NCBI GenBank assembly: GCA_963930775.1
Contig: OZ005691.1
Location: 6,197,000 to 6,260,999, forward strand
Direction of reading: 5' to 3'
Length of the DNA stretch: 64,000 nucleotides
DNA from: Cliona cf. orientalis
Taxonomy: Eukaryota; Porifera; Demospongiae; Clionaida; Clionaidae
Shown: piece by piece, positions 25,201-34,200 of the stretch
How the letters are laid out: each line of letters begins with the position of its first letter
Position numbering within the stretch: the stretch's first letter is position 1
Notes under the pieces: generated by a model
The model's input: only the letters and a program-made list of their open reading frames with translations
Databases searched by the model: none
Told to the model about the DNA's origin: nothing
Position numbers and translations under genes: made by a program

Positions 25201-28200
25201 GATGGACAAAAATTGCCAAATGATTGCAGTAACCCCTCCGCCTATGCTTTGTGGCTCGGAGGATTAATAATAATAATAATAGTATAGTGGCAAGGGTATA
25301 GACTATGATAATGGGGGGGGGGGGGGGGGGGGGGGTGAAGCCCCCCCCCCCCTCAAGATTTTTAACCATAATCTATGTACAATTAAGCTTATCGAGCCAT
25401 GGCTCGATAAGATACATTCTTTTTTGCCAATCCTGGCTACGCCCCGGCCCTGCATTGAGCCACTTTCTCAATACACTACTGGAGAGTGTGGTCTTAAAGT
25501 AGTCTAAAAGTAGTCTTAAAATAGTCTGGATTGTGTCTCTGAAAAAGCATCTGACATAAAAAGTCTGAAAAGTTTCTCAATAGTATATGAAAATGGTATG
25601 AAATTGGTCTAAAAATTTGGGCCAATTCTGACTTAAAAGGGTATGAAAACAGACTGACGAAAAGTCTAAAAAGTTCATGAGAAGGTACTGAAACTGGTCT
25701 TAAGTAAGTATTGACATGCACAAATACTAGAGGTATCTTAAAGCAATCTGATATTGGTCTAAAAAGATTATTAATTATTATGTGCCACATGAATGGAATG
25801 TGCAATTAATTACAAATTATTGTAAGAATGAAGAATAAAGAATAGCAGTTGGAATAAACAATAAGGATTAACATTAAAGTTAAGGATAAAACCACAAAAT
25901 TAAACAAAGTATAAAATACTAAAGTCATGCAGCACTATAATAATATAATATACATATACATGTAGATTAAACTTAATCCTAAGAACATTCCTTACTAGAG
26001 TCTCATTGTTTGTGTTTTCTCTCAAATTTCTTCTTTTCTTTATTTTTCAATTTTCCAATCTGTTAGCCAAAGATAGAATCCAATAAGTTCCACAGTAAAT
26101 TTACAGAGGAAGTTGTATGAACATTCAATATGTAGCTACCTAGCCTCGTACCCAGGCCTGGAAGGAGGAGGAAAAAGGTATTGCACGCACATGTGCTAAC
26201 TACCCCAGGAAAACCTGGGATGCCACTACAAGGCTGCACCGATATGACATTGCCTTGTACCCTTGCCCATGGGAGGAGGGTGAAAAAGCATACAGTTGTT
26301 TGCAGCAACCCAGGTTTTCTTGGGGTAGTTGGTACATATGCATGCAATCATACATGTAGATATTATAGACTACGTAAACGGGATTGGAAACTGCTCACGT
26401 GAGCAATAGAATGTACGTATACATGTACGCACACTCCATGTTATAGTTTGCATTCTTGGATGGACCCGTCGCTATGACAATTTGAGCACAAATGGCCGAA
26501 AATGGCGACTGCAGTGCACTTATCGACTAATAGCAGTGAAGTAACAGTAGTTTCGAACTTGAACTAGGCTTATTCCAGTAAGGAGTCCCTACTCTAAACG
26601 TGGCTAGCAAAGTTGAACTTCCGAAGTCTCTCTGGTCTATGCTACAGTCCCACAAAGTCCAAGAAGCAAAAAATGGCTGATCAAGAACAGCTGAAAACTG
26701 TTTATTTCAGTATATCGGTGCAGTGCCTTTGCCCTTGCCGCCATTTCGGGATGCGCTGTCTTATTTATGACAGTTTTAATACTGATTTCGCTGTCTTCTG
26801 TGAGTAAGCAGGCCGTGAAAAGGGCCAAAATCGGCCATTCTTGCTTCTTGGACTTTGTGGGACTGTAGCGTAGAGCAGAGAGACTTCAGAAACTCAAACT
26901 TGCTGGCCACGTTTACAGCAAGGACTCCTTCACTGAAATAAGCCTTGTTTAAGTTCAAAACTACTTTTTGTTTCGCTGCTATTAGTTGATAAGTGCACTG
27001 CGGTCGCCATTTTCGGCCATTTTTTTGCTCAAATTGTCATAGCAACAGGTCTATCCAAGAATGCAAACCATAACACGGAGTGCGTGTACACGTTCTATTG
27101 CTCACGTGAGCGGTTTCCAATCCCGTTTACGTAGTCTATAATATCTATGGTGCAATAGGTACAAGGCCCTTTCTCCTCCCCTCAAAGGGCCTGGGTGTAT
27201 ATGAGGTTAGTAGCTACCAGACCCTTCTCTTCTCCATCCACTTAGATGATAATACAGTACAGTATGCAATTTACCTTCAGTTGGTATCACCTTCCTCATC
27301 AAATCATTGTCGTTACATCATAATTAGTGCCACTGCAACACATTTTCCCAGCAGACATTCCTTCATTCCCTACAAGATAAAAAAATTAATGTTATTAGTC
27401 AGAGAACCAACTTAGTCTTGTATCCAGATCCTTTGAGGAGGATAAGGAGAAAGGGCCTGGTACACACTGTACGTGCATGTACAAAATTTACAGAGGATTT
27501 CCTAGTACAATTCGCTGTATATTATCACTACCATGCGGTCAGACTCGGTGAAGCATCCAAAGTCAGTGAAGTCTAGACATGTCCTTCTCGTAGCTACTTT
27601 ATTGTTCTTTTGTCGATATTGCTCACTTATGATAGGTAAATTGGTCATAACAGCCCAAAATACTGACAACAAATGATTTTTAGGCTTATTTCTTAGGTCA
27701 AGGACAAAAATACGAATTCCCAGCTTTATTGGGAAAATAACGCATGCACACACAGTACTTATGAACCAGACCCTTTCTCCTCCTCCTCCTCAAAGGGTCT
27801 GGGTGGTATTCCATCACAAGAATTAAAGCCAAGGAAAGCACACCGGGGAAAAGAGAGAAAGGGAGCAAGGGAGGGAGGGAGAGGGGGGAGGGTAGTCTCG
27901 CAAGCCAGACCCACCCCCGTGGAGAAAGGGTCTGGTACACTTCGCATAGCGGTTTTGTGCAGCGTATGCCACTATTTTCTTGGCGTGTTAATGACGTGTG
28001 AATGTAGCTCAAGTGGATATTACATAATAGTTTGTTCAGTGATAACCCGCACACGCACGTGCTGTACATGTCGACTATAGCAAACGCACGCAGTCTGTCT
28101 ATGTCGTGCTACCATGGCCCTTTGCTGTCTCTGTCGAGCGTGTGCACCGCCAGATCACCGAAGAAAGAAGAAATTCCACGGAGCTAGTTGCAACACGGCG

Positions 28201-31200: not shown

Positions 31201-34200
31201 ACACACACGTTATACAAGCTGCTCGAGTCCTCCAGTTGAAGAACCCAACATCATCCGCGATCAAACTTTCTGAGTCGGTTATCAGCGAGTTCATTCACCT
31301 CCCACGATTGTCGTCAACTACGAGGTCAGAGTGTGATGATGGAGTGTACATGTATGCGAAGGAGTTGTTGACATTGGGTCTGCTTTGGCACGGTTTTCAC
31401 GATGCGATTCGGGAGGGTGACGGAGAGAGGATACTGAGATACTGGAAATTCCTCCTCATCGTATTTAAATCCACAAATCATCGCAACTATGCCAAGGAAT
31501 CCGTGAATGTTTTGTGCCAGTACTACTACAAATTCTCTGAAAGGCAAAAAGCACAGCTTTTGTGGAGTAGGTGTGTCAACACAAGAGGCTATGCTGGTGC
31601 TAACATTCCATGTGATTTGCATATGGAGCACCTGAACAGGAGGCTCAAAACCATAATTCGTGGAATGGGGAGCAATATTTCTCCGTCTAGAATCCAGAAA
31701 GCATCCAGATCACTTGCTGCTGTTCAGAGAGTCTGCGATACATTTGAGAGGGAAACAGTTAAAAGCATGCATTCCGATCACCATCCTTATCCTTCTTTCG
31801 GCAAGGATTTCAGAACAGTTTTATCAATACTAGAGGACGAAAACGTTTTCGAACACGTTCCAGGGCGTAAACATGCCTCTTTTTCTTTCAATTGCGGATT
31901 GTTAGAGACTGTAAAGCGTGAGGAACTTGTGAAAAAAGTTCAAAGGAGCATTTCTCAGATTTCACTTTAATTATTATTAACGTATTGTCACAATTAATGA
32001 TGTCATATTCCTGTATAATTATGATAATAAATAAAACAATAAAATTATGCATTGGGCACAATCTTCACTATTGTTGGGAAGTAATTCCACACAAGTCACA
32101 ACACGCAGATCCCTTCACGTGTATGTCGTCCTGAGAGAACCTTATAAAGTCTTGAAACAAAAGTTTGCGTCGGCAAACTGATTCATTCTCAGCATAATCC
32201 TTGACTTTCTTGTTGGAAAACCTTCCTCCTTTCTTCCTATACAAGATAGCTGTTGTAGGATATCCATCGCGGCCACTTCTACCTGTCTCTTGAACATACT
32301 CCTCCAGAGTACTTGGTAGTCCCCAATGAACAACAGTACGAATATCCGGGCAATCTACCCCCATCCCAAAAGCAGACGTTGCAATCACTAGGCGAAGGCT
32401 GGTGTCACTTTTACTAAAAGTACACAAAACTTCTTCTTTCTTCTCGACAGTTAGCACTCTAGTATACATGTCCACTAGCCTGTGTCCTGCAACATTCGGG
32501 CAACCTGGCGGTTCAGTGAAGGCTGATCCTAACTTTCCCTTCACCAACATGTACACGGAACAACAATCTGTGTAAGTTCTAACGTACAACACAGTCTTAG
32601 GAAACGTGATCCTTTGTTCCTTTAGCTTTCCACTTAAGAAATCGGTTAAGGTAGAGATGTCAATTTTTGGTAGCACATTGTAACATATGTTGTCTCTGTT
32701 CGGTGGCATGGACACAAGTACAGGGTTGTCCATCGAGAGCCGTTCAGATACCGTGTAGTATGTTTCTGTAGTGGCAGTAGCTGTCAGTGCGAGAACGTTC
32801 ACCGTGTTTGGTATGATGCTTCGTAAATTGCAAATTTCTGAGAAAGCGGTCCTGAATTCATCACCCCAAGTCTTCACACAGTGTGCCTCGTCAACGACCA
32901 GTGCGACGAGGTGCTGTTGGTATGTATCGGAGAGCAACATTCTTCGATATGTTTTGTTTGATATCAGACTCTCGGGTGATATAAACTCCAACTGAACTTC
33001 GCCTTTTGTTACTCGGGCTTTCACAGCATGATCCTGAGAATCACAGACATACTCAGTACATAATCCCACCGGCGAGAACTTGTGTTGTTGGTCCATCATT
33101 AGAGAAGTAAGGGGACTAACGCAGACAACTATGCTACCTGTTGAACCTATGCAGTCAATGATATTTATATCATTATCACACCTTACTCGAGCACAGCAGT
33201 AGAGTAGTAACTTGCCTTTCATGGACAAGTGGCAGAACTGCGTAAATTATGGACTTGCCATACCCAGTGGGAAGTGAAACAAACGTGTCTCTTCCACTTA
33301 GAAAAGCAGTCAAAGCTTCCATTCGCTTGCTCTTAAACTGCAGAACACCCAGGGCCCGTCCACTCACTGTAATCGCCTGCCTTATCCTTGCCTCCATCCA
33401 CAAGCAACGTCCCCACTGCATGCACGCTGTCAGCTAGCTAGCTATGAACTCGTGATCGATCACATGCCAGCGTACCGCCTCTGCATGCATAGCGTACACG
33501 GTACCTGTACGCGTATAGCGCTAGCGTATCGTACCACGTACTATTACGTGTGGTTAACGTTGTTTACGTAGCACGTTCACACCTACTTATCTTTATCGCG
33601 TGCGAACGACATTTGCTGTGTCAGCAACACAAACCCGCTATGCGAAGTGTACCAGACCCTTTCTCCGCGGGGGTGGGTCTGGCTTGCGAGACTAGGGGGA
33701 GGGGGGCACTAATTAGAAAAACAGAGGACAAAGTATAACGAATTCGGAGCTGACTGAGGATTGTTAGCGTATTTACGTTACTTACTTACTTACTTGTTGG
33801 CTTGTGACTGATGATGTCAACGTTGATTTCGGTCCAGAGCCTTCTTATCACCCAGCTAAATCAACCTCCTAGAACTTGCTGAGCAGTGACCGTCGACTGC
33901 GCTTTTTATCTGTATCGGCTGGACAGTTTAATGAAAATCTTGAGGCTTTCGACGCTTATTAGCGTCCATTTCTTCACAGACTTCTTCAAACAGTCCGTCA
34001 TAATAGCTACCCAACTGTAATAGACCGTTCCATGGATCCACTTCCCTCCTCACGTGATACTGGCGCCGCGCCGCGCACTATAATTATTATCAAAAAGTCA
34101 GATACTTTTCAGATGCTTGCCATTCAGACTTCTTCAGATTGGCTAAGACTCTTTTAAGACTATATCTTAAATTAGCATTAATTTCTAACAATTTCAGGTC

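Follow-up and report, generated by a model that had tools for sequence, protein, structure and literature searches.

Terminal inverted repeats (TIRs) are a general feature of the Academ superfamily of DNA transposons, within which AcademX carries an XPG nuclease; Helitrons have neither TIRs nor a target site duplication (TSD), and have an HUH endonuclease. AcademH elements are reportedly found in animals and fungi, going by the title of a 2020 paper by Kojima. As far as the accessible passages of the following papers go, AcademH encodes a helicase and has a TSD of 9 or 10 bp, while AcademX has a nuclease and a TSD of 3 or 4 bp (PMC10045372); a RecQ helicase is named in Academ (PMC3627910); AcademH is present in three fungal groups (PMC10799480); and bivalve Academ elements have a mean length of 5565 bp (PMC10294476). 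KolobokH also carries a RecQ helicase and, in the accessible part of its description, is reported from fungi alone; in one rhodophyte Kolobok the helicase is on the complementary strand (PMC9587614). The element described here lies in a 64,000-nt stretch of the Cliona cf. orientalis genome (contig OZ005691.1, positions 6,197,000 to 6,260,999; “the window,” in whose coordinates unprefixed positions are given). It combines a gene for a DUF6589 protein with one for a RecQ-like helicase, and we consider it, with a probability of roughly 0.88, to be a DNA transposon of the AcademH lineage with an autonomous layout, in which DUF6589 is the transposase and the helicase its co-inherited partner.

Window positions 27893–33694 constitute a DNA transposon of 5802 bp (Table 1). 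Its inverted ends are identical at 65 of 67 nt (97%), with mismatches at positions 28 and 61, and both sides are flanked by GGGGGAGGG, a perfect 9-bp TSD. Because this TSD is in a G/A-rich flank, and alone could mislead, an empty site was sought. The 200-bp flanks each match a dispersed repeat, at 42 places for the left and 40 for the right, the window's own counted. When the 18 best left-flank and 17 best right-flank matches outside the window (by E-value) were paired, the two halves adjoined at 17 places; in this best-match pairing the overlap is exactly 9 bases in five cases and 3 to 12 in the others. Three of the 17 (L079–L081, on C10, C8, and C1) were checked at the sequence level. At the paralogous C10 site, 99% identical to each flank, the flanks are joined with a single GGGGGAGGG, an empty site; the C8 junction has one base change in the 9-mer, and that on C1 a small gap in a G run. 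The element was therefore inserted at the 27893/33694 borders. An earlier note, made from the letters of the window, had proposed these borders, ends, and duplication; TIR comparison and the empty site both bear them out, and the paired flank sites have the same borders.

Table 1. Mapped features of the transposon; coordinates are window positions.
Feature	Position	Strand	Evidence or remarks
Whole element	27893..33694	.	TIRs, TSD, second full copy 98.4% identical, empty site
TSD, left copy (GGGGGAGGG)	27884..27892	.	Flank comparison and empty site
TSD, right copy (GGGGGAGGG)	33695..33703	.	Flank comparison and empty site
Left TIR, starts TAGTCTCG	27893..27959	+	Recurs at ends of copies 2 and 3
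Right TIR	33628..33694	-	Inverted-repeat comparison
Subterminal palindrome CCAGACCC(N15)GGGTCTGG	left 27905..27935, mirror 33652-33682	.	Arm at least as long in 7/200 base shuffles (left end)
Gene 1 exon 1 (approximate)	28114..28563	+	Cys-x2-Cys pairs; zf-AD-like, E 0.067, below cut-off
Gene 1 exon 2 (approximate)	28732..29181	+	AG and GT at borders
Gene 1 exon with GDNVD motif (approximate)	29884..30161	+	Aligned to 19 further loci besides the two copies
Gene 1 exon, N part of DUF6589, GGDQLT and EDWH motifs	30607..30909	+	Frames, Pfam, alignment, borders
Gene 1 last exon, C part of DUF6589, DLHMEHLN motif	31054..31970	+	Open frame 31170-31970
Gene 2 main frame, RecQ-like helicase, 392 aa, CRR/CCDLC	32068..33246	-	Open; Pfam, solved relatives, motifs
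Gene 2 5' exon, Walker A TGYGKS (borders approximate)	33225..33397	-	Separate upstream frame; frames, Pfam

A genome-wide search with the 67-bp end, as suggested in the earlier note, gave six matches, two each at the window element, at a second full copy, and at an internally deleted third. Copy 2 (C1:19173436-19179257, 5822 bp) has a perfect 9-bp TSD, GATACCAAG; over 5787 aligned bases it has 46 substitutions relative to the window copy, and 13 indels also separate the two. Copy 3 (C1:10657294-10658548, 1255 bp) likewise has a perfect 9-bp TSD, AGAATGGGT, with one end reduced to 33 bp of terminal repeat. The genome has 231 exact matches to the terminal pattern TAGTCTCGNNNNCCAGACCC and none to the reversed control. 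An inverted-pair search over 100 listed places of this pattern found 30 pairs: 9 of 84–128 bp, 10 of 425–478 bp, 6 of 640–649 bp, the 1255-bp copy, and four of 5.8–6.3 kb. By length, 25 of these 30 are too short for either gene; the same ends therefore bound many elements too short for both, and these look to have moved in trans. The refuting case named in the earlier note, that other copies of the ends never enclose both genes, does not hold: copy 2 encloses both, although most of the listed pairs are too short for either. Within the window, positions 45107–45199 have TAGTCTCATGTACCAGACCA at one end, with two mismatches to the terminal motif, and hold an inverted repeat around GGATGTATTGCATC, a string that the ends of families E and F (below) share; ungapped self-complementarity is at most 68%. 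This stretch may be a decayed relative of the 84–128 bp pairs found elsewhere.

Eight further families (A to H) were chosen because near-identical copies gave the helicase-side border, the DUF6589 side then being added; borders of B, C, and H were placed by hand within two bases. In seven of the eight, 5464–6316 bp long, both ends are present and the 9-bp TSD is perfect (ATCATAGTG, GGTAAAGGG, GTTTTCGCT, AATGAGCTT, GTAGTTTAC, TTGCTGTCT, and TCACGCGCT). Together with the window family (three of three), both ends and a perfect 9-bp TSD are found in 10 of the 11 insertions examined. TIRs in A, C, D, E, F, and H span 92–131 nt at 85% identity or more, ungapped; in family B only 11 nt. Helicase-side ends start with TAGTCTCG in the window family and in A to G, and with TAGTTGGG in H. 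The exact inverted repeat CCAGACCC/GGGTCTGG, or a variant, is near each end in the window family, A, C, F, and H. For A, C, and H, none of 200 base shuffles gave a palindrome arm at least as long, against 7–11 of 200 for F and the window; families B, D, and E have no such excess over base shuffles. The two ends of family B (L071, C7:1967073; L036) both begin with TAGTCTCG and then diverge, and its DUF6589-side end resembles the helicase-side end of family G, as if one end had been exchanged.

Between the ends of the window element are two convergent genes, with 97 bp between their stop codons; open frames, Pfam matches, and splice-like borders agree with the earlier description of both as intron-containing. 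Gene 1, on the plus strand, matches Pfam DUF6589 in two exons, with E-values of 3.5e-6 (alone just under the cut-off) and 9.8e-29, and several of its exon ends have splice-like borders. It had been taken to be intact, which it is not: the window copy has an in-frame TAG at 30832–30834, a position at which copy 2 has no stop. Its frame also shifts near 31157, unlike that of copy 2, and both copies have a further shift near 31205. Near 29307–29317 the two copies are in different frames. In copy 2 the helicase gene contains an in-frame TGA and also shifts frame, and neither full copy of the window family looks fully coding. With the DUF6589 gene broken in both, these copies could move only in trans.

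Gene 2 matches the Pfam families DEAD (4.7e-10) and Helicase_C (1.5e-11), and RecQ_Zn_bind below the cut-off (0.0066). Its relatives among solved structures are RecQ, BLM, WRN, and RECQ1, 4, and 5, with RecQ and BLM the best. Apart from the frames of genes 1 and 2, the element holds no open frame that reaches 190 aa, and no nuclease family is among the Pfam matches of the seven window frames scanned.

The pairing of these two genes is genome-wide. A search with the window helicase gave 126 matches (105 of 376 candidates scored), merged to 99 loci; one with the DUF6589 profile (PF20231) gave 122 matches (102 of 338 candidates scored), merged to 102 loci. Only part of the candidates being scored, both counts are lower bounds. 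A RecQ-like gene lies within 5 kb of 94 of the 102 scored DUF6589 loci, and in all 94 the nearest is convergent. The window-helicase query by itself paired 69 of the 102, again with every nearest partner convergent and with gaps of 226–1749 bp; one of the 69 has a second, divergent helicase 3.6 kb off, which is the partner of a neighboring element. The idea that the remaining third (33 of 102) is helicase-free was dropped: opposite-strand frames were read at seven of these loci, then at ten with the helicase strand in mind (six of them the same), and contain RecQ-type motifs (in pieces, such as LTASAP, KTIVF, STIAFGM, GRAGRDG, CRR, and CCDxC), with RecQ_Zn_bind in five of seven frames, at no better than E 0.0037 to 0.23. 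A second query, the frame L063:365-967 (69 of 69 candidates scored), then paired 25 of the 33 within 5 kb, all 25 convergently, one partner being 3674 bp off and the others 293–738 bp. The separate, convergent genes singled out by the earlier note are thus real, but not peculiar to the window copy.

Both genes were compared in 28 loci, collapsed to 17 families, across which identity ranges from 31 to 63% for the helicase and from 30 to 72% for DUF6589. The two sets of distances are correlated (Spearman rho 0.756, reached in 0 of 10000 permutations). Motifs III, V, and VI of the helicase, like its zinc cysteines, are largely kept, apart from single departures such as GRARRDG in L015, GRAGCDG in L031, and the lack of a cysteine pair in the L017 stretch. 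Near-identical recent copies are also present in the genome, for example at 99.97% over 3193 bases.

DUF6589 keeps three motifs with variants, DN[VIL]D-like, GGDQLT-like, and D[WF]H, and also EHxN. Residues D208, E212, H213, and N215 (L078 numbering) are invariant in all 12 aligned sequences, and the D, D, and E motifs are conserved in that order. The conserved DN, GGDQLT, DWH, and EHxN motifs would fit a DD-E transposase; DWH lies between the second D and the E, with the spacing D-x-H, so that the likeness to the comparison motif is loose. A role of DUF6589 as the transposase is strongly suggested. A search with the C-terminal alignment found no DUF6589 relatives in viral contigs; a search of the accessible papers did not find the name DUF6589, and found PF20231 in a single optics paper, unrelated by its title.

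The proposed placement in AcademH rests on three tested features, set by descriptions of that group. The helicase is of the SF2/RecQ type, by its DEAD and Helicase_C matches, its RecQ and BLM relatives, and its motifs in 17 families; a perfect 9-bp TSD, within the 9 or 10 bp given for AcademH, is found in 10 of 11 insertions, family G being only suggestive; and TIRs are present, 67 bp at 97% in the window and as measured above in further families. The likeness to AcademH is thus that of a DNA transposon with a helicase, RecQ being named in Academ, and with a TSD of that length, as far as the accessible passages describe it, and the length of the window element is near the Academ mean for bivalves (PMC10294476, in part). 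The earlier note's pointer to a helicase-bearing Academ lineage therefore stands, while its view that a helicase in such an element is unusual loses force, given RecQ in Academ (PMC3627910) and the AcademH helicase (PMC10045372), both as accessible. AcademX, in the same superfamily by name, differs by its nuclease and its TSD of 3 or 4 bp rather than 9; with no nuclease among the seven scanned frames, it was rejected. XPG_I has only four matches in the genome. A Helitron, which also carries a helicase, was rejected on account of the TIRs and TSD. We read the window element as a new, amplified member of a kind already known, not as a new kind of element.

For an AcademH-lineage element we infer the following course. 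The N-terminal part of DUF6589 would bind the TAGTCTCG ends; a candidate DD-E center, formed by one D each from DN[VIL]D and GGDQLT together with the E of EHxN, with DWH between, would cut the ends and join them to the target with a 9-bp stagger; and the RecQ-like helicase would probably unwind either the ends or the DNA after transfer, allowing gaps to be repaired. The convergent gene order may be a structural habit or a matter of regulation.

Several results weigh against the AcademH reading. The DUF6589 C-terminal profile matched no transposase among solved structures, its single match being the RsbR modulator protein at E 0.74. Eight of the 102 DUF6589 loci have no partner detected within 5 kb after both helicase queries, and in the second locus group the partner's identity as a helicase is based on weak Pfam scores and on motifs split between frames. 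Conversely, 30 of the 99 helicase loci are without a scored DUF6589 locus at up to 5 kb distance; L015, at least, does hold one, and some of the others, those with long frames, are probably host RecQ genes. In family G a second terminal repeat was not found; its helicase-side 9-mer, ATGGCGACC, is present again on the opposite side, immediately followed by TAGTC, as if most of the second end had been lost. Near-copy pN/pS is about 0.5 for both genes (about 0.48 for the helicase), rough values, since a frame change seems to inflate the figure for the helicases of the window copy and copy 2, and a single distant pair, L055/L059, dominates the total for DUF6589; such weak constraint is as expected if many copies are dead.

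A stronger version would have DUF6589 as an unrecognized transposase in an obligate pair with its own RecQ, which opens the palindromic ends, and the tail-to-tail order as functional, for instance through overlapping convergent transcripts that limit the pair's expression. The order of the nearest partner does span two divergent sequence groups, in 94 of 94 paired loci; as a joint claim we hold this to be doubtful. That the helicase is a dispensable passenger adjoining the transposase is unlikely: its pN/pS among near copies and the many short same-end elements that lack it, by length, would fit, but it is beside 94 of the 102 scored DUF6589 loci, the two genes diverge in step, and its motifs are largely kept at 31–63% identity.

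The same constancy and conservation of the helicase could instead mean that it drives a helicase-led rolling-circle or peel-and-paste mechanism, with DUF6589 as an accessory. We consider this very unlikely: the TIRs and the constant TSD length of 9 bp speak for cleavage of the ends as a pair and for a staggered joining, no further open frame of at least 190 aa is available between the ends, and the conserved acidic motifs of DUF6589 are in DD-E order. A KolobokH-like element, with the same RecQ partner beside a DDD/E transposase of another superfamily, and with the rhodophyte case (PMC9587614, in part) as a precedent for a helicase on the opposite strand, is extremely improbable and is excluded because the Kolobok target is TTAA, duplicated as 4 bp, whereas 10 of 11 insertions here have 9-bp TSDs of varied sequence, the ends are TAGT..ACTA, and KolobokH is only fungal in the accessible reports.

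With the AcademH reading, a Pfam family of unknown function becomes a candidate transposase with named putative catalytic residues. The element kind is already described; the useful part is this link of a transposase to such a family. A genome with about 100 scored loci, recent copies, and short derivatives is also a setting in which to study a transposon-encoded RecQ helicase.

Among the RecQ-like loci, three on different contigs (C4:3100069, C6:5103715, and C10:1853658) have equal scores and open frames of 1329 aa; they may stem from a host gene that multiplied recently, or represent a further mobile unit with a helicase. Adjoining the window element, positions 27424–27802 have 41-nt inverted arms (88%) with 297 nt between them; the arms have CCAGACCCTTTCTCC-like sequence in common with the element ends and are partly within the dispersed repeat that received the element. 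Relatives of this flanking repeat are found about 9–10 kb from contig ends (C12:9033, C12:9348498 of 9358149, C9:8578, C8:9963512 of 9973041, and C13:8962), which suggests a subtelomeric placement. Elsewhere in the window are tandem duplications at 46616–46928 and 21417–21568, with periods of 160 and 81 bp, respectively.

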